From positions 186,001 through 250,000 of the forward strand of contig NBAY01000050.1 in NCBI GenBank assembly GCA_002794775.1: a stretch of 64,000 nucleotides of DNA. Direction: 5' to 3'. Position 1 is the stretch's first letter, and each line of letters opens with the position of its first letter. Source of the stretch: Porodaedalea pini. Its lineage: Eukaryota; Basidiomycota; Agaricomycetes; Hymenochaetales; Hymenochaetaceae. Shown in pieces: positions 1 to 18,399 of this stretch. The position numbers and the translations under genes are program-made. Under the pieces are notes generated by a model. That model did not search any database, was not told the origin of the DNA, and saw only the letters and a list, made by a program, of their open reading frames with translations.

Positions 1-1
1 G

Positions 2-1312
2 TTTTTCATCGCAGATGGACAACTTTGGAGGAAATGATACTCAGGACCGCACCAACTCGTACTTGCACGAGATCGCCGATTCTCAGTCATGCAGTCAGCA
101 CACAATGACCTGGGACACAAAGGATTCTTTTCAGTACAACTACAAATCCACGATCGATTTTGGTGGCCCATGATGAGTTCCGACATACATTGGTTCCTGA
201 AGACATGTCACTTGTGCCAGACTCGGCAATTCACTCACATACAAATTCCACCAAACGTCCCAACACCAGCACCACTATTCACCAGGGTACACATAGATGT
301 GATGCTCATGCCCAAATCAGGGGGATTCAGGTATATTGTCCAGGCAAGAGACTCTCTCACAGGCTACCCGGAATTCTGACTCTTATGTGCTGACAACTCG
401 AGATTGATCGCCAACTTCATCTTCTAGGACATCATATGTCGATGGGGTTATGTACACGAGATCATTTCAGACAATGGTCCATCATTTGACAGCAAAGTAA
501 TCAGGATGTTGGCAAGATACGAAGTCCACAATATCCAAATCTCCCCCTATAACTTGAGAGCAAACAGAATTGTAGAGCAATGCCACAGGGACCTTAGGGA
601 AACACTGATGAAACTTGCCAGGAACGACAAAACTCGATGGTCACAACATGCATACCATGCCATATGGGCGGAGAGGATCACGATTCAGAAAGCAATGGGA
701 TATTCGCCATACTACATGGTCCATGGAGTCCAGCCGATCCTTCCATTTGACTTGGCCAAACAAACATACATGTCACCAGTATATACATTGAAGGTATCCC
801 AGTCAGAACTACTCACAGCATGAGCAAGGGCACTCCAGTGTTGACCAGAAGACTTGAAACAAGTACACTCGGCAGTCATGCGTGCTTGCTTCAAATCAAT
901 CCAGCAATTCGAAAAACACTACCAAAACACAATCCGAGACTACGACTTTGGCCCTGGAGCCCTGGTTCTGGTTCGAAACTCACAAATCAACACAGAACTA
1001 AGCCGGAAAGCCAAACCCAAATACCTCGGACCAATGGTAGTTGTTTGCCGAACAACTGGAGGATCATACATTCTCGCAGAACTCACAGGTGCAGTCTCAG
1101 CACTACGATATGCAGCCTTCAGAGTTATCCCGTACCACCCCCAAGCAAACATATTGACCCCAGTCACCCAGATAGTGGAGCAAACCAACTCAGAACTCGA
1201 CGATCTCACTAACAAACATTCAAAAATCAAAGGGGAGGAGCTCGGTGCCGAGGATCAGCCACAACCAACAGAAATCCTTGACACCGACTCTGGAACCGAA
1301 TCTGAATCATGA
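2..1312 (+). pseudogene. Gypsy integrase of element A, broken by five stops
   Basis: One frame runs from position 2 to the stop at 1312 and would encode the C-terminal end of Pol. It contains the HHCC zinc-binding module (H..HKG, then CHLC near 210), the catalytic core (HIDVM near 285-300, SDNGPSF near 468-490, the ANRIVEQ glutamate near 560-580) and a GPY/F-like module (YLGPMVVV near 1021). Integrase inserts the cDNA into nuclear DNA. In-frame stops lie at 35, 377, 425, 821 and 842; four are TGA and one is TAG. The paralogous integrase of element B has Arg at the position of the 377 stop, so that one is a CGA to TGA change. The copy is dead as it stands. An acidic tail follows the GPY module. 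Confidence 0.9.
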
Positions 1313-1530: not shown

Positions 1531-2747
1531 CTATTTTCTACCCTTCCCTTTTCCCTTCTTCTTCTTTTCCTTTTCTTCCTTCTCCTCCTGTTCTTGAACA
1601 GTCCGATAGTTAATGAAAGATTCCTTGTCAAGGAAGGGCATAGGCAGCATCCAGTCCTCAACCTCCTCATATTCGCTGAGATGACACGTAAGCTCATCGA
1701 CACGAGCCTCATACACCTCAAGATGACAATGAACGGCAGCCTGGCGCTCGCGAATTGACACACAAGACTTGGCAACATTCCTAGCCAACGCCCCAACCAG
1801 GACATTGATGGAAGCTGTGTCTGAGTAGTTGGGCACATCACTGAACTGCCAGACTGCACTGCCAATACTGATCAGGTCTGCCATGGAAAGCACGAGAGGA
1901 GTGAGCTGGGTACCACCATGCTGCCCATGGAACCTCTCAAAGACGCAGCGCACCTTATTCCATGAACAGCGAGTGCACCGCTGACTCTTGGGGACACCAT
2001 TGCATGACGCGCCTGCGACAATGCAAGTGTCGCAAGTGAGGGCAAACTGAACAGTCCGCCCTAGGTGTACCCCACCTCTGAGCAAATCCGGGTCCGGGCC
2101 ATCAGAAACGGCCTCTTTGGGCTTCACATCTCTCGCAGAAGATGCACCCACAGCACACGGAACCTTGGACAGACCAGGATGAGAAGGTCCTTCATTGCCG
2201 CTGGATTCAACCAGAACCGGCTTTCACTTCATCCCAGGCCTCGTAGGAGGGACGTTAGCTGCCACCACCTCAGAATGCGTGCGCAAACCACCAACCTACA
2301 TGGGAACAGTCAACCATGAAGATCAGGATTGGTACAGAAAGGAATGTTCACCTTCGCCACCTCACGCGGTATCTTCATGGATGAGGTGCTTCTGCTGACT
2401 GTCGAAGGATCGGTTTTTACAGTCCCAGCCGGCGCAGCCAGGAAAGGAGAGGTGGAAGTCCTATGAGGGGGCACGGTGGGCCCACCAGTACCTCAACGAG
2501 ACATGGCACTCGCATCTGAACCAGCTTGAGGCAACAATGTGGGAGAAATGACCTCCCCAGTTTCTGCTCCCAAACGTGTGAAGACAGGATGAGGGTGAGG
2601 CTGACGCATATGTGATCCATGACGGGGCAGAGATGGAATCAACTGAATAGGAGCAGAAGGGATCGCAGACAAAACTGGCAGAGGAGGACTGACCATACAT
2701 TGGAGTCGGCCCTGGAGCTCCTCGTCCGTCGCTGTAGGATACAGTGT
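1531..2747 (-). pseudogene. Antisense gene of element A, 3' part with Zn2Cys6-like cluster
   Basis: Continuation of the gene that starts at 14380. It covers the end of exon 2 (2747-2352), an intron at 2351-2296 (GTGAAC...TGTAG, 56 bp, phase 0) and exon 3 (2295-1531). Exon 3 encodes six cysteines spaced CX2CX6CX8CX2CX6C (codons 2034 to 1945), which fits the Gal4-type binuclear zinc cluster consensus, although the usual basic stretch between the cysteines is weak. A Lys/Glu-rich tail (KEEKEKKKKGKGKGRK) ends the protein. Two in-frame TGA codons, at 2493-2495 and 2224-2226, interrupt it. The gene runs opposite to pol, between integrase and 3' LTR. The family resembles proteins annotated as Zn2-C6 domain proteins in Agaricomycetes (recalled, not searched). 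Function unknown; DNA binding is inferred only from cysteine spacing. Confidence 0.7.
1945..2034 (-). other. Zn2Cys6-like cysteine cluster (element A)
   Basis: Spacing C-x2-C-x6-C-x8-C-x2-C-x6-C, with CDTC and CTRC as the two CxxC pairs. This falls inside the fungal Zn2Cys6 consensus (x2, x6, x5-12, x2, x6-8). All six cysteines are present despite stops elsewhere in the gene. Confidence 0.75.
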
Positions 2748-2751
2748 GCGC
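2748..2751. repeat. Target site duplication of element B, left copy (GCGC)
   Basis: GCGC abuts the first base of the left LTR and matches GCGC at 13493-13496 next to the right LTR. Four bp is short but within the gypsy range, and the frame restoration supports the junction. Confidence 0.85.
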
Positions 2752-3685
2752 TGTAGATCCTGACTTAGGGGTGTCTGGGATCAGCAGTCCTTTTGGGGAC
2801 GTGATCGTGTTGCTCTGGGAGGTTAGGGGTTGACTGCGGTGAGATCACTCGACGTACCGGTACGCATCGGTACGCTTTGGTACGCGCTGGTACACGTCGA
2901 TATTGAGTGCTAAGGTCAGGTACTCCTGTCGGCTCTGTACTTGACCAGTATGGAGTCGGTACGCACAGGTAATCAACACCGGTACAATGTGATCACGACA
3001 AGCGACGAGGTTCGAGTTACGGAGTAAGAGACGAGAGATGGTTTTGAGAGACGAGATGCTAAGACGAGGATGGAACGACTACGGGTTTTACAAGAACTAA
3101 GACAGATTGCACTCAAGTTACCCTATCTGAGGGAGACTCTGCGGTAGAACTGACTTGTCCTCTACCTACGACATGGGGTGCATATTTATACTAAGTCCAA
3201 AGATCTATCTACAGTTAATATTTTCCATACGGGCATAATGTGCATATCAGTTGAAACATAGAGAAGTCAAAAGGAAAAGTCATAGGTCATAGAGGCGCAC
3301 ATAGAGTGCATAGAAATCAGAAGAACATAGGAAAAACATAAATCATAATGAAGAAAAATGTCCGCATTGCGTCCGACCATACCGGTGCTCCACCAGAACT
3401 CAGATCGTCCAATCGGTATGTGGCTCCCATCATCGGACAGCAGTCTGGTACGCATCTTGGCTGTATGCTCCATGTGACCATGTCCCTAATCATCCAGATA
3501 AGATCTCCAGTACGTTCTGATATGCATTTGGAGGTCTCGGAACGTGTTGCTGATGCGATTGCGGGGTTCTGATTCAAAACTGGACTGATCAGATTCAGTC
3601 CAGTATTGATCGGTACACGTCAGAACCAGTTCTCGAGTGCTTCTGGAGTGATCGGCAGTGATGGGATGACCGGCATGGCTCTACA
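2752..3685 (-). repeat. 3' LTR of element B (left copy, 934 bp)
   Basis: Aligns end to end with 12560-13492. The first ~304 bp differ at about 26 positions and the last ~268 bp at about 29, nearly all transitions, yet the ~362 bp between (3056-3417) show no difference. It carries a 10-bp-phased GGTAC array at 2859-2893 and, on the - strand, a TATAAATA box (3183-3190). Termini form the inverted pair TGTAGA/TCTACA. Confidence 0.95.
2859..2893. promoter_or_regulatory. 10-bp-phased GGTAC array in left LTR of B
   Basis: GGTAC starts at 2859, 2869, 2879 and 2889, exactly one per 10 bp. Several copies read CGGTACGC, so CGG triplets recur with 7 bp between them on one strand. The same array is in the other LTR. 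Confidence 0.7.
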
Positions 3686-3846
3686 TCTCCTGGGGTGTTT
3701 AAATCGTGACTGTCCCCAGTCACGCCTTCTCTTCTTCTGATACGCGTGAGAAGCTTGATTACGCTGATCATGCATGTCAGGACATGCGAGAGAGGGCATT
3801 GGAAAAGTGGTCATACCGGCGGGTTTTTCTCCTGCTTCTTCCAACC
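3686..3846. other. Gap between 3' LTR of B and its antisense gene
   Basis: A 160-bp stretch with no ORF. Read on the - strand, CCCCAGGAGA directly precedes the LTR start and is the likely polypurine tract. A second purine run (GAAGAAGAGAAGG type) lies near 3725-3740. Confidence 0.5.
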
Positions 3847-6016
3847 ATGTCATCTCCGCACCGCAACAGCAGCAGCAGCAACAACAACAGCTCAGCGCCG
3901 CCTCAGCTGGCACGCAAAACACCCCGCGTACCAGGGTTTGTCGACAATGTCGACCCCATCAAGCATGAGAGGATCACGCAGGATGCCCACGAGATCGAGG
4001 AACGGCTGGTTGACATCGACCGGTACGTGCGACGCCGCCTTGGGCGGTATGTGAAGCAGCGGGAGATGTTATTGGCGGGGAGTCGGGGTCACGAGATTGG
4101 CGAATGGTGGAAGTGGGCCGAGTAGGCGTACGGCATGAAGGTGAGTCCTCAAAACTTGATCAAGCACACGTACCGAGCTGACCGACTCGAAATAGCGCAC
4201 CCTGGAGAGCTACTACCAGCTCTACTGGGACTCTGTGGTGCTGGCGAAGCGCCACCCGATCGTGTCCGATCTGCGGATGTACCTCCTGGTCATGCGGGTC
4301 TGGAAGGAGATGTGGTGGGTGCTGGATGGGCTCAACAAGCCCACCGCCAACCGGCTCTACAGTTGGTATTTCGCTGACCACCAGACGGTCGACCTCACCA
4401 AGTACCGGGGTGAGGGAGTCATCGTACCAGTTGCGGACTGGCTGGACGACGTACCGTACATCGGCGGAGAGCTCGAGCGCGTACTCGTACCCGATGGGTA
4501 CAGGTATAAGTTCACCTACCCTGTGGAGCGCGAGGTGCAACCGCGCTTCATCGGGGTCCCATCAGCTGTACCGGCAGTCAAGGTGTTCGTCGAACGTCTC
4601 AAAACGCCTGGTCTGCCCAAAGTTGAGGAGCGTGAGATTGAGGAGGAGGAGCGTGCCATCCCATGTACCAACGGTACCGCGTCTGCGCAACAGCAACAGC
4701 AGATGGGTCCGCACGAAGTTGAGGCGAGTGTGATGCATGAGGAGGAGTCTGGCGTACAGCATACTGGTGACGCCCCATCGGCACAACAGCAACAGCAGGT
4801 GGGTGCCGACAAGTGGCAATGGTGTACCACCATCGAAATCGCATCTGACAACAAGGACGCAATGCGTACCGGACAACACAAAGAGCCACTGTGGCAACAG
4901 CAGCAGCAACAATCCGCGCCAAGCACGGCGACGAGTGTCCTGCCCCCAGCAAATGCGCCTAGGGGTCTATTCTTTGAGATGGAGGCAGCCGCGGAGCACG
5001 AAGCCGAGCAGCGGGTGGAAGACGAGGCCGGTCTCACTGCCATGTTAGCCACTCAGGAGGAGGCTCGCAAGAAGGCAGAAGCGACGCGACAGGCACGTGA
5101 GCGCGGCCATCGGGAGAGTGGAGGAGGTGCACGTCGAGCATGTGAGTGAGGTCATGGGGGCCCTCACATGAAGCAACGCCGGGAGCCGCAGGTCGAAGAA
5201 GAGGGGGAGCATTTTGCCCCTGCAGAGCCTGATCCGGATCTGATGGAGGCTGAGAGTGGTGGCCCGTCATACCACCATGCAGACGAGGGACGTACCGACG
5301 GTACATTGGGTCCCACAGTCACCATGTTTGACGAGGTTGAACTGGTTAACCCAGCGACTGGTCGCCTATGCTGGGTGGGGCCGCTGCCAGTCCCTCTCGA
5401 GGAGACGTGCGCGAACTGCGCATGTTGGGGGAGAGTGTGCAAGGGGCAGCCTGGTAGGGCTTGCTTCCTCTGCATGGTCATCTGGTGGATGGGATGCTCA
5501 CTGGCGACCCAGGGACGTGCGAAGGAGGTCCGGGGCGGAAAGTCGGGTGGAAAGCGGAAATGCGCCGCCCACGACAAAGGCGTACCACGTGCCATGCCCA
5601 AGGCACTGCAGCAGCAGCAGCAGCCGTCTGCATCGTCTGCGCCACCTGCGCCGGCCTCTCTGATTGTGGTGGACACGCCGTCCCCACCGCCTCATGTACC
5701 AAGGCCCGCTGCCACATGCGTACTGCGGCAGCAGAAGCAACAACAGAGGGGGCGTGTTGCCTCGCCACCCGTTGCTGGGCCAAGCCAGTTCGCCAGCACC
5801 TACGAGGACCCGCACGAGCTTGTCTCGGAGCACGACTCCGAGGACGAGTTCGACCACGTCATCGCAGAGCTCGTCCACAATGTCCGCGAGCTCAAGCGTA
5901 GCTCACATTGTCTTGCTGCGGAGGCGACTTGTCAGGTGGCCAAAGTGGCCTCGATCCACACGTGCCTTGTGGCGCTCGAGAAGGGGAAGTGGGGCACTAG
6001 GGAGGAGGAGGACTAG
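3847..6016 (+). pseudogene. Antisense gene of element B: helical/polyQ protein with Zn2Cys6-like cluster
   Basis: Encoded opposite to pol, between integrase and 3' LTR. Exon 1 starts at ATG 3847 and runs to 4140; the intron is 4141-4195 (GTGAGT...ATAG, 55 bp); the next exon opens at 4196 in the same phase. The N-terminal half is charged and helical. The middle carries glutamine blocks (AQQQQQ twice, WQQQQQQ, LQQQQQ). A Glu/Arg/Ala-rich probable coiled coil lies near 4980-5110. The C-terminal part has six cysteines spaced CX2CX6CX7CX2CX7C (5408-5497). Damage: TAG at 4123-4125 in exon 1, TGA at 5147-5149, and a likely +1 slip near 5100, because the alternative frame there reads as coiled coil. 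The last exon ends in an acidic/basic tail at 6016. No function is known; it has the same position and cluster type as the gene in element A. Confidence 0.7.
5408..5497 (+). other. Zn2Cys6-like cysteine cluster (element B)
   Basis: Cysteines at residues 81, 84, 91, 99, 102 and 110 of the 5168-6016 frame, with an extra Cys at 86. Spacing fits the Zn2Cys6 consensus. The segment after the second CxxC is hydrophobic (MVIWWMG) and not basic, so specific DNA contact is uncertain. Confidence 0.65.
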
Positions 6017-6448
6017 TCGGTACACATTGGTACGCATTGGTACGACTTGGTCCTGCGGACGAGAAAAAGAAAAAGAAAAAAAAAAAAGAAAAATAATACA
6101 AAGTGTAGTAATTTATTTGTATATATTTTTGAATATGGATTTTTCTTTGTTTTTGTTAAGTTTTCGGTGTGATAAAACGAAAGAACAAATAGAAAAAGAA
6201 AAAGAAAGATCGTCCTTAAGTGTCCATTTGTGATTTTACTAATGTACTGGAAGGGAAATCAAAGATATGCCATATAGTTAATGTTTCAATAATCGAGAAA
6301 GTGTTCCGTATGAAAGAATTTAAAACAGTTCCATGGTCAAAACATAAACAGATCATAATTGATTAAAAGATAATAAAATAAAGAGGCATCGGTATGTGTC
6401 GGTATGCGTACCGGTACCTTGGATGGCGAACATAATCAGAATTTGCGA
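6017..6448. promoter_or_regulatory. Spacer of B with two GGTAC arrays and an A-rich tract
   Basis: Between the convergent ends of the antisense gene and pol. GGTAC occurs at 6019, 6029 and 6039 (10-bp phase, next repeat degraded to GGTCC at 6049), and GGTAT/GGTAC at 6391, 6401 and 6413. An A/G-rich low-complexity run lies at 6061-6096 and the middle is AT-rich. No ORF is convincing. The arrays bracket the antisense gene together with the LTR array at 2859. Confidence 0.55.
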
Positions 6449-9400
6449 CTAGGTATCAGAGTCCGATTCGGAGCCGTCTTCTTCTACCAGATCTTCCTTC
6501 ATCATGCTATGTTTGTCATCATCCTGTCGAAGGATTTCGTCAAGGGGAACAGAAATGTCAGATTGGGGAAAATAAGGAATGAGATGAAAAGCTGCAACCC
6601 GAATCTGGGAAACTGATCCATCGAGTTCCGAGATGATATATGCTCCGGAATGTGCCCTACGGACAACGATGTATGGTCCTAAGTACCGGGCCTTTGTCTT
6701 TCGGTCCAACTCCTTTTCGATCTGGGTGTTCCGTACAAGTACGAGTCGACCAGGCTGGAAATTGTAGTCCTTGATGACATGCTTATGGACTTCGGCGAAC
6801 TGTCGAGCATACTTGTGTTGAGCATCTCAAACCAACTGCGCAATCCTATCGAGGTCCGCCGGACGCTTCTGTAACTGGCGTGCCCAGGTCACTATCAGTT
6901 CCTTGGTATGCATCAGGGAATCCAACAGCAGAGTAAGATAAGTGGCCTCGGCAAGATCGAACGGAAGTACCGGCTCGACTCCATGAACCATGTAGTACAG
7001 CGACATACCGGTCGATTTCTGGATTGTGATGCGCTCGGCCCAGAATACTGAGTAAGTGTGCTCATGCCACTTGGAAGCGTTCCCATCGGCTGCCTTGATC
7101 AAGGCTTCCTGGACGTTGTAATGCCGTCATTTGACGATCCCGTTGGCCTGAGAATTATATGCCGAGATCTTGATGTGCAAAATGTGGTACCGATCCTGCA
7201 ACCAATCAAGCGCAGTGATAAATGGAGTACTGTTGTCGGTAACGAGTTCGGGACACGCACTGTACCGACACAGTAATTCCTGAAAAATGAACTGCCCGAT
7301 CGTGTGACCAGTCTGCTTTCACAACAGTCGGAACTCCGGGTAACTGGACAAGGAGCACCATGCATGTACGATGTAGTGAAAGCCTCCTGAAGCAGGCATG
7401 TGCTTCGTGTCGATGTGGATCCGGGCAAACAACGTCGGTACGTCCGGTACCGATGGCAGTATCGACACTTTCGTAGTCTGGTGCACCTGACAGATATGAC
7501 ATGTACACACGAAGTATTTGATGTCTTCCAAAATCGATGGCCACCAGAACCGATCCAGCAATCGAGTGCGTACCAAGTACACCCCCTTGTGTCCGAGATC
7601 GTCATGAGCCTGCTGAACAAGTGACCACCAGCGTTCTGGCTCAATGACCAACTGGGGATGCTCTCATCGGGTCTTTTGCCAAAGTCATCCCACTCGCACA
7701 AAGAATCTGGAGGCATACCGGACAAATGAGGGGAAGCGCTTCTCATCGATCTCCGAGGGCTTCCTTCCGTGTTCGAGGAGGTACCGAACCAACTCTAATC
7801 ACTTATCTCGCGACTTTACTGAATCCGAGGCCGGGAACTGCTGCCCCTGAGGATCCGTGGCTGTACCGGACCCTTCTTCGACGTCAGTACTCAACACCGC
7901 TCCATACAAAAATGCATACGCTGCATCGATCCACTCTTCATAGTTGTCTTCCTCCTGTGGGTCCTCTGGCATGGCTTGCCACCTCCACAGTCCGTCAGTA
8001 CACGTGAATTCCACAGCTGGTACATGGTGAAGCTCAAAGTCGAAAAGGAGAATTCCTGCGATCCACTGGTTTATCGTCGCGTTCAGCTGTAGATCCGGAT
8101 TGTTAATCATCCCTTTGACGTACGCTGCATCCATCTCGACCACCAGGAGCTTAACTCCATAAATAAACAACCTCACCGCCCTCAACGCCCTAAACAACCC
8201 GAATAACTTGATCTTCGGCTGGGAGTACGTCGCCTGTACTGAGTTCCAGTTGATCGACCCGAACTGATTAATCCTTCTCCTACCGTCTGGGTGATCCTGG
8301 CCTAACGTCCACCCTACTCCTATGATTGATGAATCCACCACTAAGTTAACCACTCTGTCTGACCCGTAGTCGATTGCGCACAGCGCTGGGCAGTCGATAA
8401 CGGCGTCCTTCAACGTGTCCATTGAATCCTGCTCTTCTGGTCCCCAATTGAATATGCTGTTTTTACGCGTAAGTTGGGTCAACGGTCGAGCTTTCTTTGT
8501 GAAATCCTTAATAAACACCCTCAACACACCAACCGTACCGAGAAATCCCTTCACCTCGGTCACCGTTTGACATGGGGGCCAATCCCGCACTTTCTGAACC
8601 TTCGAATTGTCCGGTTCGTGTCCTCGGTATGTGAGTTTATTCCCCAAAAATATTGCCAAATCGGTACACGCCTGGAATTTCTTCCCGGAAAATGTACCAC
8701 CCACTTTCCTCATCCTCTGCAGCACTCGGTTTACATTGCACAAGTGTTCGTAGATGAACCGGCGGATGCCCAGGTTCTCGGGAATTGTTTCAAACCCTCT
8801 GTCAGTACGCTCATACCGTGTAAACCCTCCTTGCATAATCACATCGTCCACAAACAGCTGTGCCACCTTAGGAATTTCGTCGCTGAGAATAAATTTGACG
8901 TCTCCATGGAGAATCTGCAGCAAATTTGTGTATCCCATCAGTAGTACCTTCAGCCGAAATGTACCGAGCGGGGTCTGGAATGTCATTAAGTCCCGGGACC
9001 GTTCATCGAGCATCCGCTGGTTGAAAGCAACAGCGAGATCAAGTACCGTGTAACACATGCACCCGCTGCACACATCCACTAGCATCTTGATGTCCGGTGG
9101 TACGGCTGAATCTTGAATGGTCACTCTGTTCAGATCCTGCAAGTCGATAACGAACCGTAAGGACGCTCTGTCTTTCTTCACCACACAAAACCACCTCGAG
9201 CGGTACAAGGAGTTCGACAGTTTGATAACTCTGGTGGCGATCTTCTCCCTGAGTATGTTTAGTGTCTTTTTGAGTATCCCAGGGGGGATCGGTATGTTCT
9301 TCCATACCCACGGTACGTGTGCCACTGTCAGTATGCATACTGGATCGAAATACGTCAGGTCCAAGGTTCCTCTCTCCGTCTCCGACCACACAAATGCTCC

Positions 9401-10021
9401 TTCCTGCAACATGATCAGATTCACCACCAACTTCCTCTCTTTGTCCCACAGAAATCTGCCAGAATCCAAATCCATTGTGTCCAGCCTTTCCTGCATAAAC
9501 TTTCCCGTTGGTACGAATGGTACCGGTTTTGTCGGCAACTTTGGCATGTCCGCCAATGGATCGGGATGTCCCCTTCGAACTATATGAAACTCCTCCAGTA
9601 ACACTCCCGGTATGGGATGGACCTTCTGTGCCACCTGCTTGTACGCCAAAACACTTCCTTCCTCCTCCATTGAATCCAACTCCACTGAGCCAAAGGTGTC
9701 CGAAGAAGCGTCCAAAGCAATGGTATAGGGAGACAAAAGAAAATTCAATCTCTGCGAATAAATAAACAGAGCTGGGGTATTCAAGATAAAACTTGGAGAA
9801 ATGTAACAGGAAATAGTTGAATCAGATTGATTTAAAACATTAGAAGACATTTGTTGAAAACTGTAAACGGGTTGAACAATTCGAGAATTAATTTTGGTCC
9901 GAGAAGGGGTCAGACGACAAGACAAATAATTGGGGTCATTAAAACGCAAAGATAAAATGTCTGTACACGAGCTCGGTACGCATACCGATGGATCCACTCC
10001 ATGGCACGTATTGCATACCAT
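6449..10021 (-). pseudogene. Pol of element B: reverse transcriptase, RNase H, integrase
   Basis: A single frame from about 10021 to 6449 holds RT, RNase H and integrase. The RT keeps the VLDLAVAF aspartate and the FVDD catalytic box. RNase H keeps the first Asp (VVDSS) and MDAAYV, but the usual Glu of the K-L-E-L-Y-type motif reads KIKLFG, so a catalytic acid appears to be lost. Integrase has HHCC (HDDLGHKG, CHIC), HIDTKHM, TDNSTPF and a GPY/F-like stretch (YLGPYIVV), ending in an acidic tail. Stops lie at 7799, 7685, 7664, 7319, 7127 and 6827 (leftmost base of each); every one is TGA. The protein cannot be made in full. The frame differs from the gag-protease frame, so either a frameshift was used or one has been acquired. 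Confidence 0.93.
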
Positions 10022-10053
10022 TGGATTCCACGCGTCTCGCCAGCACCGATGCG

Positions 10054-10842
10054 TCAGTTCCTCAACTTGTGAAAACCCAATTCCGGAGCACGCCAGAACG
10101 CCTGGATACCGGTTGACACCTTGCTCCTACGATTCCGATCTTGGGGGTCCATGATGGTTATATGCTGATCGCCCGACAAGAAATCCTTTGTTTCGCATTC
10201 GGTAAGAGCGAAAAATGGTCGCCCCAACAATACTTCAAATGGTGCCACCAAAACCACCTGAACCTGCAACTTCAAATCCACACCCGCTACCCTGAATCTG
10301 GTGTCTCAAATCCTTCCCAATGTTGATGACTTCCCTGCATCCGCGGCTTCGAGCATCATCACGTGATCCGGATCCAAATGAATTCCTAACTTCTCCCACA
10401 CGTCTTCCCGAATGATGCATACCACCGCCCCTTGATCGAGTATGGCTTCTGCTTTGATGGTGTCCTCGATCAATACCTTAATTACGCGGATGGGAAGCAC
10501 GTCATGTGCCACCGGTCCGGACTCCAAGAGAACCAGAGCCAACGACTCCGGTACCACTTGGTACTCTGCGACTTCGCTCCCTTCCTGGTCCGACTCAACG
10601 AGATTGACATTACCGACCGCGTACCACTTCGCTGTTGTCAACTCCTTCATCTGCCGCCTCATATCTGAAGACAGAGTGAGGAGCTCCCGCTGTGTCACCA
10701 TTACTGCTGAGTCTAACGTCCTCAACAATACCTTCTGAACCGTCGCCGGATCCTCAATTGGAGCAATGTACCAGAACTGTGGCTGGTTTCCGCCCGAATT
10801 CATCATCGATCTGCTCTCCTGGGGAATGTTCGGGTTACCCAC
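10054..10842 (-). pseudogene. Aspartic protease (retropepsin) region of element B
   Basis: The frame continues directly from gag. The active-site motif reads ILDQGAVVCII, so the usual DSG/DTG is DQG; variant third residues are common in basidiomycete gypsy elements as I recall, so this may or may not be inactivating. A second characteristic segment (VVLVAPFEVLLGRPFF) follows after a TGA at 10306-10308. The frame ends at 10054, and pol resumes in another frame. Confidence 0.8.
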
Positions 10843-10905
10843 TGGCTTCGGTACGCTCGATTTTGCATTCGAGGTCGTTGGTACGTTCGCTGGACCGGGT
10901 TTCGG

Positions 10906-12558
10906 TCATACCAATATCTCGACTCCATCAAACTTGGCTTTCTTCGCCGCCGACGCTCGCTTCTTTGCTTCGTTCAACAATGTTTTGTACTGCGCCACCT
11001 CCAACTCTTCGTCTGATACTTCTTCTGCAATCTCGGCCATCATTGCTGGGCCTTCTGACACTTCGGTACCCATTGTCATCGATGTCGCCACCTCTATGAG
11101 GTTAACTGAGGCCGTACTGGTCTCCTGACGCAGAAAATCTATCTTCTCCATCAAATTATTACCCACCGCCGTGCTTGGTACGAACCCTCCATTCGGTAGC
11201 ATCACCTTTCCGTTCGCATCCCTCACACACTTCCCTGCCTGGATATACTCCAGCACCTTTGGGCACGACCTAATGTAGTGGCTTGTGTCGCCACAGAACG
11301 CACACCCGGGACTCCTCTGGGACGTCGTTGCTGGCGGTGGTCTTCGCCCAAGTGACTGCACCTGAACCTGAATGTTCTTGACCGCTTCCCACACCGTACC
11401 GATATCTACTTCCTCCGACTTTACCTTTGACTGATTTGTTGGGTCAGGCGCTCGAGTCGTTGGTACGTCGTCGAAAACCATACCGGCCAAGATGTAGTCC
11501 GCATGCTTTACCACCAAATTGATCGTATAAGGTTTGCCTGGGGATGGGTCGGGCTCCTTCATCTCTAGGTGTTGCTGCAACCTATCCTTCAGTTTGCCTG
11601 TAAAGGCTTGGATGAACGCACATGCCGCTTCCTCTGCTGAAATGATCAAATTACGCTCCAAATACTTTGACCTCACCATGAACTCTCTCTTGTATTCTCC
11701 AAAATCCTCCCTCGACTGTATTCCTTTACTCTTCCAACCCTCGACGAGCCTATTGAGGTCTTCCCGGGTGAAGCACACACCGGGTGCCAAAGCCGGGTAA
11801 AACGCTATAATCGCCTCCTTCACTTTCGTCCAATCGTTCGCTCCCGTACCGACACCATCGGCGGTATCCCACAGCTCAGCTATGGAACTAGAAGCATAAT
11901 ACTTCACGTACCAGATCTTTGCCGCGTTGTCTAAGTTGCAGTCAGTCGTGATATATTCGATATCCTCGAAGTACCGAGGAAGGTCTAATGGGTTATTTCC
12001 ATTGAAGAAGGGAGCATCTCTAGCTCCGCGACGTGGAGGACGGTTTGACATGATTCTAACTGGAGGTACTGGTTGCACCGGCGCTACTATGGTTGATGTC
12101 CGGGGCTGCGTAGCCTGTGTGTTAACTGGGTTTGACAGAACTGATGACGTACCAACGGGTGAAGACGTCTGTCCTGGTACAGATGAACTAGGATCCGGTA
12201 AGACGAGCTGAGCAGTATCGTCTGGGTTGTCGCTCTCGAGCTCGGTTAGTGGTGATGAGCTAGTCGATGGGGCTGAGGGGACTGTCGACAGAACTGCGGA
12301 CGAGCTGATTAATGAGAAGGGAGACTGCGCTCCAGAGTCGAATGATGTGTTAAGTTGTTCTAAGTCCAAATCAAGGTAACGCTCTACAGACTCAGAATCT
12401 GAATCCGTAGTGCACTCTTCAATACGGCGTCTATGCTGCCAAGCATTAGCGGTTCTATATGGATGAGGGGGTTCAATAGTCTGCTGAGATGTCCCACGCG
12501 ATGAATGCAGAGGACGTGAGGATCGCGACACATTTAACCCCCTCGTGGTGGGCTCCAC
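10906..12558 (-). CDS. Gag of element B (capsid and CCHC zinc knuckle)
   Basis: An open frame of 550 codons. The first ATG in frame is at 12051 (MSNRPPRRGARDAPFF), giving about 380 aa. The upstream ~170 codons are open but have no ATG, so an original start may be lost. The capsid-like core includes LPRYFEDIEYI, WDTADGVG and LNRLVEGWKSKGI. A zinc knuckle CAFCGDTSHYIRSC (C-x2-C-x4-H-x4-C) near 11265-11305 binds the genomic RNA. The stop at 10906-10908 is TGA and the same frame continues into the protease, so it may be an acquired or read-through stop. Gag forms the virus-like particle in the cytoplasm. Confidence 0.9.
   Translation of the reverse strand: MEPTTRGLNVSRSSRPLHSSRGTSQQTIEPPHPYRTANAWQHRRRIEECTTDSDSESVERYLDLDLEQLNTSFDSGAQSPFSLISSSAVLSTVPSAPSTSSSPLTELESDNPDDTAQLVLPDPSSSVPGQTSSPVGTSSVLSNPVNTQATQPRTSTIVAPVQPVPPVRIMSNRPPRRGARDAPFFNGNNPLDLPRYFEDIEYITTDCNLDNAAKIWYVKYYASSSIAELWDTADGVGTGANDWTKVKEAIIAFYPALAPGVCFTREDLNRLVEGWKSKGIQSREDFGEYKREFMVRSKYLERNLIISAEEAACAFIQAFTGKLKDRLQQHLEMKEPDPSPGKPYTINLVVKHADYILAGMVFDDVPTTRAPDPTNQSKVKSEEVDIGTVWEAVKNIQVQVQSLGRRPPPATTSQRSPGCAFCGDTSHYIRSCPKVLEYIQAGKCVRDANGKVMLPNGGFVPSTAVGNNLMEKIDFLRQETSTASVNLIEVATSMTMGTEVSEGPAMMAEIAEEVSDEELEVAQYKTLLNEAKKRASAAKKAKFDGVEILV
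12541..12558 (-). promoter_or_regulatory. Candidate primer binding site of element B
   Basis: On the - strand the sequence two bases inside the 5' LTR begins TGGAGCCCACCACGAGG. PBSs normally start TGG, complementary to tRNA CCA ends, and lie within a few bases of the LTR. I cannot assign the matching tRNA. Confidence 0.45.
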
Positions 12559-12665
12559 TTGTAGATCCTGACTTAGGGGTGTCTGGGATCAGCGGTCCTT
12601 TTGGGATGTGATCGCGTTGCTCTGGGAGGTTAGGGGTTGACTGTGGTGAGATCACTCGAAGTACC

Positions 12666-12700
12666 GGTACGCGTCGGTACGCTTCGGTACGCGCTGGTAC
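12666..12700. promoter_or_regulatory. 10-bp-phased GGTAC array in right LTR of B
   Basis: GGTAC at 12666, 12676, 12686 and 12696. The intervening bases differ between the two LTRs while GGTAC itself is kept at all four positions. Confidence 0.7.
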
Positions 12701-12989
12701 GCATCGATATCGAGTGCTAAGGTCAGGTACTCCTGTCAGCTCTGTACTTGACTGGTATGGAGTCGGTACATGTGGGTAATCAACACCGGTACAATGTGAT
12801 CATGACAAGCGACAAGGCTCGAGTTATGGAGTAAGAGACGAGAGACGGTTTCGAGAGATGAGATGCTAAGACGAGGATGGAACGACTACGGGTTTTACAA
12901 GAACTAAGACAGATTGCACTCAAGTTACCCTATCTGAGGGAGACTCTGCGGTAGAACTGACTTGTCCTCTACCTACGACATGGGGTGCA

Positions 12990-12997
12990 TATTTATA
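12990..12997 (-). promoter_or_regulatory. TATA box in 5' LTR of B
   Basis: TATAAATA on the - strand (+ strand TATTTATA), identical in both LTRs (left copy 3183-3190). Orientation matches the gag-pol direction. It lies in the LTR segment with no differences between copies. Confidence 0.6.
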
Positions 12998-13492
12998 CTA
13001 AGTCCAAAGATCTATCTACAGTTAATATTTTCCATACGGGCATAATGTGCATATCAGTTGAAACATAGAGAAGTCAAAAGGAAAAGTCATAGGTCATAGA
13101 GGCGCACATAGAGTGCATAGAAATCAGAAGAACATAGGAAAAACATAAATCATAATGAAGAAAAATGTCCGCATTGCGTCCGACCATACCGGTGCTCCAC
13201 CAGAACTCAGATCGTCCAATCGGTACATGGCTCCCGTCGTCAGACAGCAGTCCGGTACGCGTCTTGGCTGTATGCTCCATGTGACCATGTCCCTAATCGT
13301 CCAGATAAGATCTCCGGTATGTTCTGATATGCATTTGGAGGTCTTGGAATGTGTTGCTGACGCGATCGTGGGGTTCTGATTTGAAACCGGACCGATCAGA
13401 TTCAGTCTGGTACTGATCGGTACACGTCAGAACCAGTTCCCGAGTGCTTCTGGAGCGATCGGTGGTGATGGGACGACCAGCACGGCTCTACA

Positions 13493-13496
13493 GCGC
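13493..13496. repeat. Target site duplication of element B, right copy (GCGC)
   Basis: Directly follows the terminal CA of the right LTR and matches 2748-2751. Confidence 0.85.
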
Positions 13497-14380
13497 AACG
13501 ACTCATGCATGCCCCTCAGTTTTGCCATGCGCTCCTCCTTTTCCCAAGCGTGTTTGGCCACCAGGAGATCTGTACGCTCGAGCCAGAATTGCGCCTCCTC
13601 CACAGCCTGTTTGGCACACTCGGCATCCTCACAAGCCCAGCGCTCTACCCTCTCCTGGGCCTCAGCAGCAGCGTGCACATGCTCAGCAGCAATGAGCCTG
13701 CATTTGCGCTTACACTCAGCCACCTTCTCCTCCTCCTCAGCAATAAGGGACCGGAGACGCTTGGGGAGCGTCTCCTCGGTTGCATTCTCCACCGCCTCCT
13801 CAGCCTCAGTCCAGAACACGTCCAAAAGGACATCCATCATGGTAAAAGAGATATGGGTGGCTTTTGCATGCTCAGAAATGCCATCCCACGTGGTAGAAAG
13901 GGAGCGCTAGAAAAGGGGTATCAGAAGCAAAAACAAGAAAACAAAAACAAGAAGCACACCCAAGTAGCCCACACATATGCCATCGCCTCCTTGTGAGCCT
14001 CTTCACTCAACTTCTCAAGATCGTCGAGAGCCAAGTTGAAGTCTTCCATATGTGACGAGAAAGGATCACACTGAATGAGACTCGGCAGGACAGACTCAGC
14101 TGGGGGAACACCAACTTCCCTGGCAGGTTCCCCCTCTCCACCCACTTCTCCGCCCAATGAGGATGACAGTAGCTGCAATGGACATGGGAGATCCACGCTG
14201 ACGAGTGCACCTCCCACATCTCGGTTGCCGTCATCAGTTTCCTGCAAAAAACCAGGGGCCGCTGGCACGTGATTACTAGCCCCCAACTTCTCCTGTGGTG
14301 GTGTCGAAGAACCCCCCCCCCCCATCCTTGGGAGACATGGGGGTGCACGGGACAGTATCAGGAGTCGTAGCATTGTCCAT
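13493..14380 (-). pseudogene. Antisense gene of element A, 5' part (exon 1 and coiled-coil exon 2)
   Basis: Exon 1 begins at ATG 14380 (MDNATTPDTVP...), runs through a Pro/Ser/Gly-rich stretch and ends at 13960. The intron is 13959-13907 (GTGTGC...CTAG, 53 bp, phase 0). Exon 2 (13906-13493) encodes a strongly helical Glu/Ala/Lys/Arg-rich segment, a probable coiled coil, and breaks off at element B's right TSD; it resumes at 2747 in the same frame. A run of twelve C at 14312-14323 (G on the coding strand) separates two reading frames of exon 1, so a homopolymer indel is likely. Without lesions the protein would be about 660 aa. Same architecture as the antisense gene of B, but low visible sequence identity. 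Confidence 0.65.
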
Positions 14381-15091
14381 CAAATGGGTAAGGTGAGACA
14401 GAGGAGGTGATAGTAAAAAGTAGAGGGGGGCATGTTTCAAAAACTACAATGATCTTTACCAACAGGAATCACGCCCCCACATTACCGGACCGGAACAAGC
14501 ACTGTGATCGCACTCAAGAAGCACGATGTGGAACCTGGTCATTTCAAGATCACTGAAGCGCCTGAAATGGTTCTCAACGATCACACACCTCAAAAGCCAA
14601 TCACACGCAGATCCAGACCACACCAAATACAGCACGAACCTGCCGATCACTCACAACGAACCCAGGTACACACTGAACACCAGCATTCAACAACGAGGCC
14701 ACTCCAAAAATGAAAAGAAACCATGAGGCACACAACACACAGATGCTCAACCGAATGCGAACACCAAAGAAAATAACTACACTGAGCCAAGACCACCAAA
14801 CAAAATTACAACTGGCCAAACAGAGACACGGACCAGCACCAAACACACAAAATACGAAACAACGGACTAAAAGACAAAAACTTGCTGATCGACCAGCCGC
14901 CAACCACAAGAAAATGACACTATTGCTGTCATGAATCACCCACTGAAGGACCGAATTGAAGCATGCGAAAGAATTGCCCAAAACACGCAATGAATGCGAA
15001 CTCCGCTGACAGACAGCATGACCAATACAGAGAGGTCCTCCTGAAACAGACACACAAATGACTCAGGCGATGCATCTGTCCTTAAAAAGAC
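14381..15091. other. A/C-rich non-coding stretch of element A
   Basis: No supported ORF. The + strand is strikingly poor in T and G, like the rest of A's sense strand. A purine tract AAAAAGTAGAGGGGGG ends at 14430 and is followed by CATGTTTC, resembling a polypurine tract plus LTR start; this reading is discussed under rejected items. Confidence 0.4.
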
Positions 15092-16027
15092 ATGCCATTA
15101 CTGAAAGCGACAAAAAGGAAAAAGAGACAACACCCGACCCTGCCCACAATGGAACGTACTGACATTACACCTCCCCATGTGATCATCCTCAAGGACATGG
15201 CACGCTGTATGCCCAACCCGACCCCTGGTGACCTCGCATTAGCCAACCCTTGCCCGATGGGTATCTCACAGATAGTCATATATGACCCCGCAACGACCTT
15301 GTTCGCCAAGTTTGCAGCGGAGTTACTGTTCGCATTTGACAAGCTTACGCCCACAGACCTGACTCTGATTTATGTGGCCTACATGTTCTGCACACCGAAA
15401 ATACAAGAGTGACTCTCGCAGTCACCCACACTCACCAGAGGTTCATGGTCTCAATTCTGTACCGCAGTCGCCATAGCCAGTCCCGATTATGAGGGCCTCA
15501 CGCAACTTGCGTATGAAGAAGTATACCACACAGTGTTCAGACGGATCGTGAGCAGGAAGGCGACTTCTTACAAATCAGCCCTGACCCTCTCTCAGTTCAA
15601 CGTGGCAGCAACGGTGTCCTATGTCCAGCCAGCATACCTCAGCCAACTGTACGAAGCCCGAGAATCGCTGATTTCTACAGAAGCTGAGCAGGCTGACTTT
15701 GCAGCGATGCTCGAAGACGCCAAGCAAGAATGCACAGCACACAAAGCACAACAGTCGGCCCTTCAGGAAACAGCACTCAGGATGGCCCGCCTTGCCAAAG
15801 TCACTCGGGAACAAGCCATCAAAGCCCACGATCTACTCTCACAGTTAGTTGGTCAATTAAACGAGCTACATATTGCACCGATCAACCTGGGTGAGCACAT
15901 GAACCTGATCGCGTCCTGGAATGACTTCAATGTGATGTTTGCAGCCAAGTATGGAAGGGTCACACAGGAAGGATCAGCCATGACGAATGGGCAGGCCAAA
16001 GCCAAACACCCGGTGCAATTCTCTTGA
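15092..16027 (+). pseudogene. Unrecognised sense ORF of element A (coiled coil), one TGA
   Basis: One frame of 311 codons broken only by TGA at 15410-15412. A start at 15092 or at a later ATG (MERTDITPPH) is possible. The first part is mixed; the C-terminal half (EARESLISTEAEQADFAAML onward) is a long Ala/Glu/Gln-rich helix typical of a coiled coil. I recognise no domain. It lies in the pol direction, downstream of the antisense gene and upstream of the 3' LTR, where gypsy elements sometimes carry extra genes; no signal peptide or membrane segment suggests an envelope protein. The single stop is compatible with CGA to TGA decay. Confidence 0.5.
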
Positions 16028-16971: not shown

Positions 16972-17817
16972 TGTAGCGATTAACCATCACCTATGTGCCG
17001 GCCGAGTCTTTCTCCCCTCACTTACACTACTCCTTTGAATCCCTTTACCAGCCGCCGAACTTTACCATTTATTCATTCATAATTGGCGGCCGACTCTTCA
17101 TTATAATTCTTGGTATGGACACGATCAGACAGAGGGATGTCGCACAAACTCGATCAGCACATGGACAACCAACTCTCGTGGGGATAGGTGGAAGGAATTA
17201 GGTGAGTAAGGACAAGGACGTGGGATACAGGTGTGCAGTGGTGGGAGACAAGAGAGCAGGTTGGGCACTCCAACATCACTCCACGACAATCGGCTGCGTG
17301 ATGTGCGCAGGCCGATCACCGACTCACTTTCACATCCATTCACACAGACTCGGCCGAGTCTTGCACCGCTTTCTCTGCTTCAGTTTAGTATAAATTCGCA
17401 GTAGTTTGTAGAGACAGGGACGGAGAGATAGAGAGGGATAGGGAGAGGAGAAACAGTACAGAGACAGACAGTCCCCTCTCCACCTCTAGACCGCAATCCA
17501 CTACATGCATTACTACGCACTACTCGCCCGACTCTCATTCTGAAAACAGTATACACCGACTCTGTCACCGACTCTCAGAACTCCGTCACCCAATCACCGA
17601 ACGCCCTCGGCCGCTGCCACAAGTGCCGATTCTACCCGCCCGAGTCTTGGTCCAACCGGAATCCTGCAGGTATCCGTATCGCCGAGTCTTCATATCTCGA
17701 ACCTCGCTCTACTTAGGTTGTCCCTCTCGGTATACCGAGTCACCGCAGTCCCCCTTGGGTCGATCACGAGCCGTAGCCCGAATCGCCCTTCGGATTAGAA
17801 GAGTCTGCACCCCTACA
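16972..17817 (+). repeat. 3' LTR of element A (846 bp)
   Basis: Starts TGTAGC after the purine tract and ends CCCCTACA where dehydrogenase sequence begins; TGTA/TACA are inverted ends. It contains a TATAAAT at 17389-17395 and ten copies of CCGA(G/C)TC. The partner LTR must lie left of the window, so the limits are inferred, not aligned. The expected target duplication would begin GCAGG at 17818. Confidence 0.65.
17002..17741. promoter_or_regulatory. CCGA(G/C)TC motif cluster in LTR of A
   Basis: Copies start at 17002, 17090, 17319, 17354, 17528, 17556, 17568, 17640, 17682 and 17735; five extend to CCGAGTCTT or CCGACTCTT. One forms the perfect 14-bp palindrome GACTCGGCCGAGTC at 17347-17360. 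About 0.2 copies would be expected by chance in 846 bp on both strands. A further copy is at 16338. Confidence 0.65.
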
Positions 17818-18230
17818 GCAGGATTCCTGCAGACGCGACACACACGTTTACCTGACTCTCCTTCGTCATCTGTACGACGTCCCACATCGCCTTCTGGTCC
17901 GTCACATCTACTCCACATACTCCAGACGTGCGCCCTCGGCTAGGCTGAGCTTGCCAACGTAACTCCTTCGTTACTGAGAATGTCGCGTCTGGTTTGTCGA
18001 GGAAGTTGAGGCAGTAGACAGCTGCACCGACTTCTGCGAGCGCTTCGGCCATCTCGAGGCCAAGCCCGCGCTGTGCACCGGTGACGACTGCAATGCACCC
18101 AGCGAGGGAGAACTCCCTCTCGGGGAGAGTCAGACGCATTTGCAAAGAGAAGTCGGAGGCCGCACGCAGAGTAGCTTCGATGCCGGAGAGGTGAGGCGGT
18201 GTGGGACTTCGAGAGGAATGTCGTGTGCAT
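17818..18230 (-). pseudogene. Short-chain dehydrogenase/reductase, cut by element A
   Basis: The N-terminal half of a classical SDR: Rossmann motif VVTGAQRGLGLEMA (TGxxxGxG), then DVTDQKAMWDVVQ and ASAGIL, where the family has the NAG motif, just before the LTR. It would be an NAD(P)H-dependent oxidoreductase of the polyol/sorbose reductase type (inference). An ATG at 18230 opens a transit-peptide-like segment (MHTTFLSKSHTASPL) in another frame, so a frameshift lies near 18160. A second lesion near 17915 turns the expected ARLEYVEVDVT into other frames. The active-site Tyr-x-x-x-Lys and the C-terminus are absent; they should lie beyond element A's 5' end, outside the window. Confidence 0.75.
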
Positions 18231-18399
18231 GCGGGAGAGATATCGGCGAGTGGGAACGGCACGGGCGATGTGCCTGAGCAAAGATGAGCGTTTCGTCGTC
18301 GCTATATGAACGTGTCTGAAAAGCTCGAGCTCTGAGACAACATGGCGAAGGTCGGCCCGGGTCTTTCTCGTCCTTCCAGCGAATTGACGTCCCAGAGGC

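Follow-up and report, generated by a model that had tools for sequence, protein, structure and literature searches.

Antisense genes with a Zn2Cys6-like cysteine pattern and family-specific motif arrays in gypsy retrotransposons of the fungus Porodaedalea pini

The evasion of silencing by a transposon without harm to its host has a well-worked case in Arabidopsis. There, the VANC protein of VANDAL elements binds arrays of the motif YAGTATTAY and causes methylation loss, VANC6 is associated with another motif, and joint evolution of the protein and its target is argued for in that study (PMC5735166). Among retrotransposons with long terminal repeats (LTRs), extra genes in antisense orientation are known from gypsy elements of plants and from the fungal element Boty (PMC7264820). 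Here we analyze a stretch of 64,000 nucleotides (the window, contig NBAY01000050.1, C50:186001-250000) from the 53.3 Mb, 201-contig genome of the basidiomycete Porodaedalea pini, in which a Ty3/gypsy element, B (2752-13492), is nested in another Ty3/gypsy element, A, each with a spliced antisense gene between integrase and 3' LTR. A third family, C, was discovered elsewhere in the genome. The antisense genes, the selection acting on them, their six cysteines and the enrichment of a different short motif in each family are observed. The best explanation that we can offer for the whole, to which we give somewhat better than an even chance, is that these accessory proteins bind the motifs of their own family and likely relieve its silencing.

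With respect to gene arrangement, the closest described systems are TRP28 of Retand, gene23 of Grande and RIRE2, in which the antisense gene lies between pol and the 3' LTR and is kept in most copies (PMC7264820, PMC11963269), and brtn of the Botrytis element Boty, a supplementary gene that a fungal gypsy element, as in the present case, carries in antisense orientation (Zhao et al. 2011, as cited in PMC7264820, PMC8365987 and PMC4227169). The plant antisense proteins are nuclear and their role is called unknown (PMC7264820), as is the function of gypsy antisense genes in general; for the Retand protein, a DNA-binding domain was predicted and a regulatory role suggested (PMC7264820, PMC11963269). 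The genes of A, B and C occupy the place that defines the aORF-3R class, between pol and the 3' LTR and opposite gag-pol, and, as in that class, are present in many copies with a conserved protein. They differ from TRP28, gene23 and RIRE2, which have other domains and for which the accessible text mentions no element-wide motif arrays (PMC7264820, PMC11963269). The rarity attributed to the arrangement in a preliminary description of the window does not extend to the antisense gene itself, such genes being already known from plants and Boty (PMC7264820). A search of titles and abstract openings, with most subscription papers outside its reach, found no fungal retrotransposon described as carrying an antisense gene with a Zn2Cys6-like cluster, or a motif array spread over the whole element; such a cluster and, still more, arrays specific to each family are what is apparently new.

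Antisense genes of three gypsy families

The antisense gene of B spans approximately 3848-6016 on the plus strand, opposite to pol, and that of A lies on the minus strand (14379-13493 and 2751-1531), divided by the insertion of B. Coordinates, frames and LTRs bear out the nested pair of elements with spliced antisense genes that the preliminary description had proposed, except that the 3' LTR of A lies at 16972-17817, beyond the extent given there. The parts of the two genes are as follows.

3848..4140, plus strand: B antisense exon 1; frame and splice donor present in the sequence, stop near its end in the window copy
4141..4193, plus strand: B antisense intron, GTGAGT...AG
4194..6016, plus strand: B antisense exon 2, with polyQ, cysteine cluster and charged C-terminal region; frameshifted in the window copy
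5408..5497, plus strand: B cysteine cluster, C-x2-C-x6-C-x7-C-x2-C-x7-C
13924..14379, minus strand: A antisense exon 1 region, borders approximate
13493..13906, minus strand: A antisense exon 2, part beyond the B insertion, coiled-coil-like
2316..2751, minus strand: A antisense exon 2, part on this side of B, left end approximate
1534..2295, minus strand: A antisense exon 3, single stop in the window copy
1945..2034, minus strand: A cysteine cluster, C-x2-C-x6-C-x8-C-x2-C-x6-C

Both window copies are broken: in B, exon 1 contains an in-frame stop and exon 2 is frameshifted, and in A, exon 3 contains one stop; intact copies of both are present at other genome sites. Nearly all of the best 40 candidate places in DNA searches of the genome match, yielding at least 47 stretches for B and at least 51 for A, some of which are fragments of a single copy; with protein queries, 42 stretches were obtained for the B cluster region and 70 for A exon 3, two of the latter being family C. 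In 8 of 18 B rows (the window copy and 17 others taken from the top-scoring ones) exon 2 is a single open frame of 609-617 codons, and the intron borders, GTGAGT and AG, are kept in all 15 readable rows of 17. Among the 37 A matches spanning exon 3 (start at residue 20 or before, end at 253 or 254, query counted in), 27 have no stop.

Substitutions were counted if seen in at least two copies, CpG-type transitions were excluded because they are recurrent, and the p values assume independent sites and disregard the tree. On this basis, B exon 2 shows 57 synonymous and 44 non-synonymous changes where 27.4 and 73.6 would be expected (omega ~0.29, p 5.9e-10), compared with omega ~0.11 for the B integrase control, and in seven A copies the counts are 5 synonymous and 1 non-synonymous in exon 3 (omega ~0.08, p 0.009) and 7 and 5 in exon 2 (omega ~0.28, p 0.03). 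The value for B exon 1 is not significant (8 and 13, omega ~0.66, p 0.23). In the other five frames of B exon 2, values range from 0.31 to 4.4 depending on the type of change, with the low values (0.61 and 0.31) coming from the reverse frame that shares third positions with the gene frame. Values of 0.76 for the excluded shared changes of CpG type and of 0.66 for changes found in one copy are what decay after insertion would be expected to produce. The A and B antisense genes are real protein genes under purifying selection, neutral evolution having been named in the preliminary description as a result that would refute its idea. That the antisense transcript rather than the protein matters, through double-stranded RNA or interference with the sense transcript, the frame being incidental, has been proposed for other elements with antisense promoters (PMC7264820). 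Here, the low omega in the gene frame and not in shifted frames, together with the preserved intron borders and open frames, makes this most improbable; as a sole explanation it is contradicted by selection on the protein frame, and it may apply in addition.

Family C was found via the genome search with A exon 3, to which it has 33% identity over 88 residues around the cluster, compared with 64-87% between the integrases of A and C. Its antisense gene is represented by four genome stretches, one of full length without stops, and its setting is that of A: integrase on the plus strand, antisense gene on the minus strand, then a sense frame (24-35% identity to that of A) and the LTR. The A and C antisense proteins also have in common a basic KKGKGKG tail. 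In a profile comparison of B with A and C, only the cluster was aligned (probability 2.75%, E 0.017), so that common descent of the B gene with those of A and C is no more than suggested by their place and pattern. The extra sense frame shared by A (window 15086-16027) and C (L041 943-2106) had no convincing Pfam match in the domain scan.

A Zn2Cys6-like cluster

The Gal4-type Zn2Cys6 pattern is C-x2-C-x6-C-x(5,12)-C-x2-C-x(6,8)-C, and the cluster usually stands near the N-terminus, followed by a linker and a coiled coil. The antisense proteins of A, B and C all have this spacing, and the corresponding regular expression without an internal stop matches only these genes in 572,640 six-frame residues of the retrieved loci (overlaps included), so the six-cysteine spacing noticed in the preliminary description exceeds chance. 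All six cysteines, whose conservation was also anticipated there, are present in 18 of 18 B rows, in 8 of 8 A copies and in family C, while seven other cysteines of the B reference copy are mostly Arg or His in the remaining rows. Across eight A, B and C sequences the invariant columns are the six cysteines, two glycines and one proline, with the consensus C-x2-C-x3-G-x2-C-x-G-x-P-x(3,4)-C-x2-C-x(6,7)-C. In A exon 3 an AlphaFold model has a long helix after the cluster (residues 160-215, pLDDT up to 92), and the best Foldseek match was vimentin (E 6.3), i.e. a coiled coil.

Reading the cluster as a DNA-binding zinc cluster has several results against it. Cysteine invariance in B, taken at first as strong evidence, was downgraded after a column control and is weak by itself, because 41% of columns are invariant, rising to 78% where codons are without CpG-like steps; six invariant columns would arise by chance with a probability of 0.005 to 0.23. 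The Pfam Zn_clus model (PF00172) aligns at positions 2-37 of 39 to the A copy L034 with 10.5 bits (E 0.7) against a cut-off of 21 bits, and a Pfam scan gave no Zn_clus match in the B and C proteins; nor did the model match pieces of the window in an earlier scan that admitted E values up to 1. In both AlphaFold models the cluster was not resolved. The Gal4-like reading of the preliminary description is not sustained by a score under the curated cut-off. The likeness to the Gal4 type consists in the cysteine spacing, the A helix following the cluster and the presence of CGG in two of the three motifs described below; the differences are the score, the location of the cluster in the last exon, within the C-terminal half of the protein and not at its N-terminus, and a C motif without CGG. 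We thus describe the cluster as Zn2Cys6-like, and do not assign it to the Gal4 type.

The genome contains ordinary Zn_clus genes (28 matches), from which a host regulator could have been captured and carried as cargo. None of these matches coincides in position with an A, B or C cluster, genome searches with the three proteins yielded no host gene, and the same place and orientation recur in three families; we regard such a capture as very improbable and, like chance, have set recent host capture aside. Two loci with repeated Zn_clus matches (L039 and L040) were considered as further elements and rejected, as they look like ordinary host regulators. Some Zn_clus genes recur with the same score (C64:151287 and 155563 with C88:374; C44:322601 with C136:56732), perhaps as duplicates or haplotype contigs.

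Family-specific motif arrays

The preliminary description had noted a repeated motif in the LTRs of each element. These motifs are real: CGGTACGC occurs 3 and 4 times in the B LTRs against 0.00 and 0.02 in dinucleotide shuffles, and CCGASTC 11 times in the A LTR against 0.41. They are, moreover, not confined to LTRs, and fill internal and coding DNA too. Without any preset motif, and with low-complexity words excluded, the top 8-mers are CGGTACGC in window B, AGACTCGG in the A pieces and ACGCTCGA in C, and CGGTAC leads among the 6-mers of B, with 51 occurrences where a trinucleotide model predicts 11.6; copy L016 and the internal part of B also have CGGTAC first at k 6, with a glutamine-repeat word leading at k 8. 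Motif counts against 300 dinucleotide shuffles (observed vs mean), for CGGTAC, GASTCGG and CGYTCGA in this order, are:

B: 51 vs 4.2; 5 vs 3.5; 7 vs 3.1
A pieces: 5 vs 2.2; 23 vs 2.5; 3 vs 1.4
C: 6 vs 4.0; 4 vs 7.0; 46 vs 7.2
Control gypsy: 2 vs 1.3; 3 vs 2.5; 1 vs 2.9
Copia: 2 vs 0.4; 0 vs 0.5; 0 vs 0.4
Remaining window, 45.5 kb: 9 vs 10.7; 11 vs 12.2; 11 vs 15.9

In A, B and C, the count of the family's own motif was reached by none of the 300 shuffles, and motifs of the other families stand at 0.6 to 2.3 times expectation. The mild excesses off the diagonal were reached by 14 of 300 (7 vs 3.1), 20 of 300 (5 vs 2.2) and 21 of 300 shuffles (2 vs 0.4). As the A and B motifs were derived from LTRs, internal DNA provides an independent test, whereas the C motif was picked from the element in which it was counted. 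In B, positions 6450-12559 contain 44 GGTAC against 8.4; the internal pieces of A contain 7 CCGAGTC against 1.0 and 6 AGACTCGG against 0.25. When the protease part is included in the internal DNA of A, the motif comes third among 7-mers and second among 8-mers, after C runs and one other word. With the gypsy element L037, the copia element and four host stretches of 11 kb as controls, k-mer z scores at k 6, 7 and 8 reach 6.6, 7.1 and 8.6 in the controls, 11.6, 11.6 and 14.4 in B, 5.4, 10.1 and 18.6 in A (at k 6 not above the controls) and 7.7, 7.5 and 9.9 in C. The arrays are element-wide, not restricted to LTRs, and the proposed match of element-specific motifs with family-specific cluster sequences agrees with the enrichment in three families.

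The layout of the two elements, with pol of B on the minus strand and, in A, the plus-strand order integrase, antisense gene (minus), sense frames and 3' LTR, is:

2752..3685, minus strand: B 3' LTR, 94% identity to 12560-13492; TGTAG...CTACA; GCGC at both outer flanks
12560..13492, minus strand: B 5' LTR; 12 GGTAC/GTACC sites; TATAAA at LTR position 496
6449..7663, minus strand: B integrase, in pieces; reading frames with 45-57% match to A and C integrase
7799..10126, minus strand: B reverse transcriptase and RNase H; Pfam RT_RNaseH_2 and RT_RNaseH above cut-off, RVT_1 under cut-off
10906..12588, minus strand: B gag-like frame, from position and a zinc-knuckle-like pattern; Pfam zf-CCHC_2 just E 0.4
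1..1312, plus strand: A integrase, in pieces; Integrase_H2C2 above cut-off; 64-87% identity to C
15086..16027, plus strand: further sense frames of A, lying between the antisense gene and the 3' LTR and divergent from the former; relative in family C
16972..17817, plus strand: A 3' LTR, 11 GASTCGG sites

A candidate 5' LTR of the window A copy lies outside the window, at C50:166118-166955. Upstream, A is interrupted by a copia-type element (L009 2103-8074; 283-bp LTRs, 98% identity), the leader of which contains an A-type LTR (L009 6523-7355, 91% identity to window 16972-17817). The gypsy control (L037 1-4500) is a further element, oriented on the minus strand, whose pol frame runs through 1110 codons uninterrupted by a stop. 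A frame at 17813-18301, abutting the outer end of the A 3' LTR, presumably resembles a short-chain dehydrogenase.

The coding sequences were compared with 500 shuffles in which codons were exchanged among positions of the same amino acid. In six long B pol frames CGGTAC occurs 17 (L014), 21 (L015), 14 and 11 (L017), 9 (L019) and 23 (L025) times, against 1.6-3.1 in shuffles, and in antisense exon 2 of six B copies 9-14 times against 2.5-4.0, a count reached by none of the 500 shuffles in any of these cases. Two frames lying mostly or wholly outside B (851 amino acids in L017, 425 in L014) have none, and pol of the control gypsy has 2 against 2.9. In C, CGYTCGA is in excess in the integrase frame (7 vs 1.7) and the extra sense frame (6 vs 1.1; 0/500 each) and in a frame half inside the LTR (14 vs 2.8); the gag-side frame has 3 vs 1.0 (26/500), the antisense exon 1 vs 0.35 (156/500), and three frames opposite the antisense gene give no clear signal. 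In coding sequence, B has a strong array, C a partial one and A a slight one. Such arrays are unusual in themselves, because they imply selection at synonymous sites for a signal in DNA. In B exon 2, 20 of 22 GGTAC columns are kept in at least 9 of 18 rows, the most well-kept columns among the permutations of its letters.

These data bear on the reading favored in the preliminary description, in which a Gal4-like transcription factor binds CGG operators of the LTR in its own element, its effect being limited to tuning LTR transcription. The Zn2Cys6-like spacing, the weak but almost full-length alignment of A to Zn_clus and the CGG of the A and B motifs are in its favor, as are the LTR arrays, which in B flank the TATA box on both sides in one-sided orientation (GGTAC 1:11). 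Genome-wide, inside or outside B copies, there are 149 triple GGTACG arrays compared with 14 for a reversed control pattern, many with a 10-bp period. However, B motifs also fill internal and coding DNA, the Zn_clus score remains under the cut-off, and the CGG argument fails in C (CGYTCGA). Sites on both sides of the TATA box and throughout the genes agree more with a protein that covers the element than with a switch at the promoter, and the mixed orientation of GGTAC over the whole of B (42:49) fits recognition of DNA rather than RNA. We consider regulation of the LTR only to be unlikely. Longer GGTACG tandem arrays with a 10-bp period are found at G000:C21:578874-578969 and G000:C5:1410507-1410632.

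The arrays might also serve a host factor, DNA packaging or integration, the antisense protein having an unrelated task such as nuclear import or chromatin tethering. Shared family specificity is the sole link between protein and motif here, and the plant antisense proteins are nuclear with a role called unknown (PMC7264820). On the other hand, three families have three clusters and three motifs, and the six-cysteine pattern is typical for DNA binders; we rate such separate roles as rather unlikely.

A possible role in relief of silencing

Under the explanation that we favor, each of three related gypsy families would encode, opposite pol, an accessory protein that diverges fast and combines a zinc-cluster-like motif with coiled-coil-like regions. 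This protein most likely enters the nucleus and would bind, probably as a dimer and presumably with zinc, the motif of its own family: CGGTAC(G) in B, GASTCGG in A and CGYTCGA in C. This motif would have built up in the LTRs of the family and, for B and to some extent for C, also at synonymous positions within genes; by binding it, the protein would act on its own family. The likeliest effect, and our leading guess, is a VANC-like relief of the silencing that the host imposes through CpG methylation, activation of the LTR being one part of this; LTR activation as such is the main alternative. CpG-type changes predominate in the copies, which suggests host methylation; the two B LTRs (2752-3685 and 12560-13492, 94% identity) differ by 53 transitions, 36 of them CpG-type, one transversion and one indel.

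The system resembles VANC more than a simple LTR operator. As in VANDAL, a fast-diverging protein is encoded by the element, and a dense, family-specific short motif that differs between related families is present in the element itself, in A, B and C alike, and the arrays are often tandem (PMC5735166). VANDAL is, however, a plant DNA transposon, in which binding and methylation loss were demonstrated, whereas here they are inferred (PMC5735166). The Pfam scan of the A, B and C proteins found no VANC-like domain; the result comes from domain models, without a direct alignment to any VANC sequence.

Several observations weigh against this explanation. VANC motifs are mainly non-coding, while those of B are also in genes (PMC5735166), and the antisense exons of A have counts of 2 vs 0.16 (3/500) and 0 vs 0.55. 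The C motif lacks CGG, three of its motif counts come from one genome copy, and the k-mer z of C exceeds the controls slightly, so that the motif rests more on the coding-shuffle test and the enrichment table. The ratio of observed to expected CpG is low in A (0.64; about 0.58 in copia) and not in B (0.94) or C (1.15), and methylation is therefore deduced from the type of substitution. The Pfam scan of the three proteins gave no sign of demethylase-type domains. Finally, no relative was found beyond this genome, in protein searches with B exon 2 (7976 candidates scored; glutamine runs probably supplied most of the search words), A exon 3 (2434 candidates) and the B cluster region (108 candidates), among viral contigs with the A/C profile, the B protein and the C integrase, or in NCBIfam, and PDB sequences gave a single match at E 0.39; this is weak evidence on spread, the collections being suspected to be poor in fungi. 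The observation of the preliminary description is confirmed, and its interpretation is supported in part.

More broadly, and tentatively, as we hold it to be somewhat short of an even chance, these families may belong to a fungal Ty3/gypsy clade with self-recognition, in which a diversifying zinc-cluster-like protein reads a motif in the DNA of its own element, synonymous sites included, and lifts silencing from no family but its own, protein and motif changing together at family splits, as an independent LTR counterpart of VANDAL and VANC. If the proposed role is true, fungal LTR elements would provide a second, unrelated case of this kind, making self-specific protein-motif pairs a recurring strategy. 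It would also give the antisense genes of gypsy elements, in plants as well as in fungi, a testable role, and would offer natural protein-motif pairs in which to study how the target of a zinc-cluster-like protein shifts.

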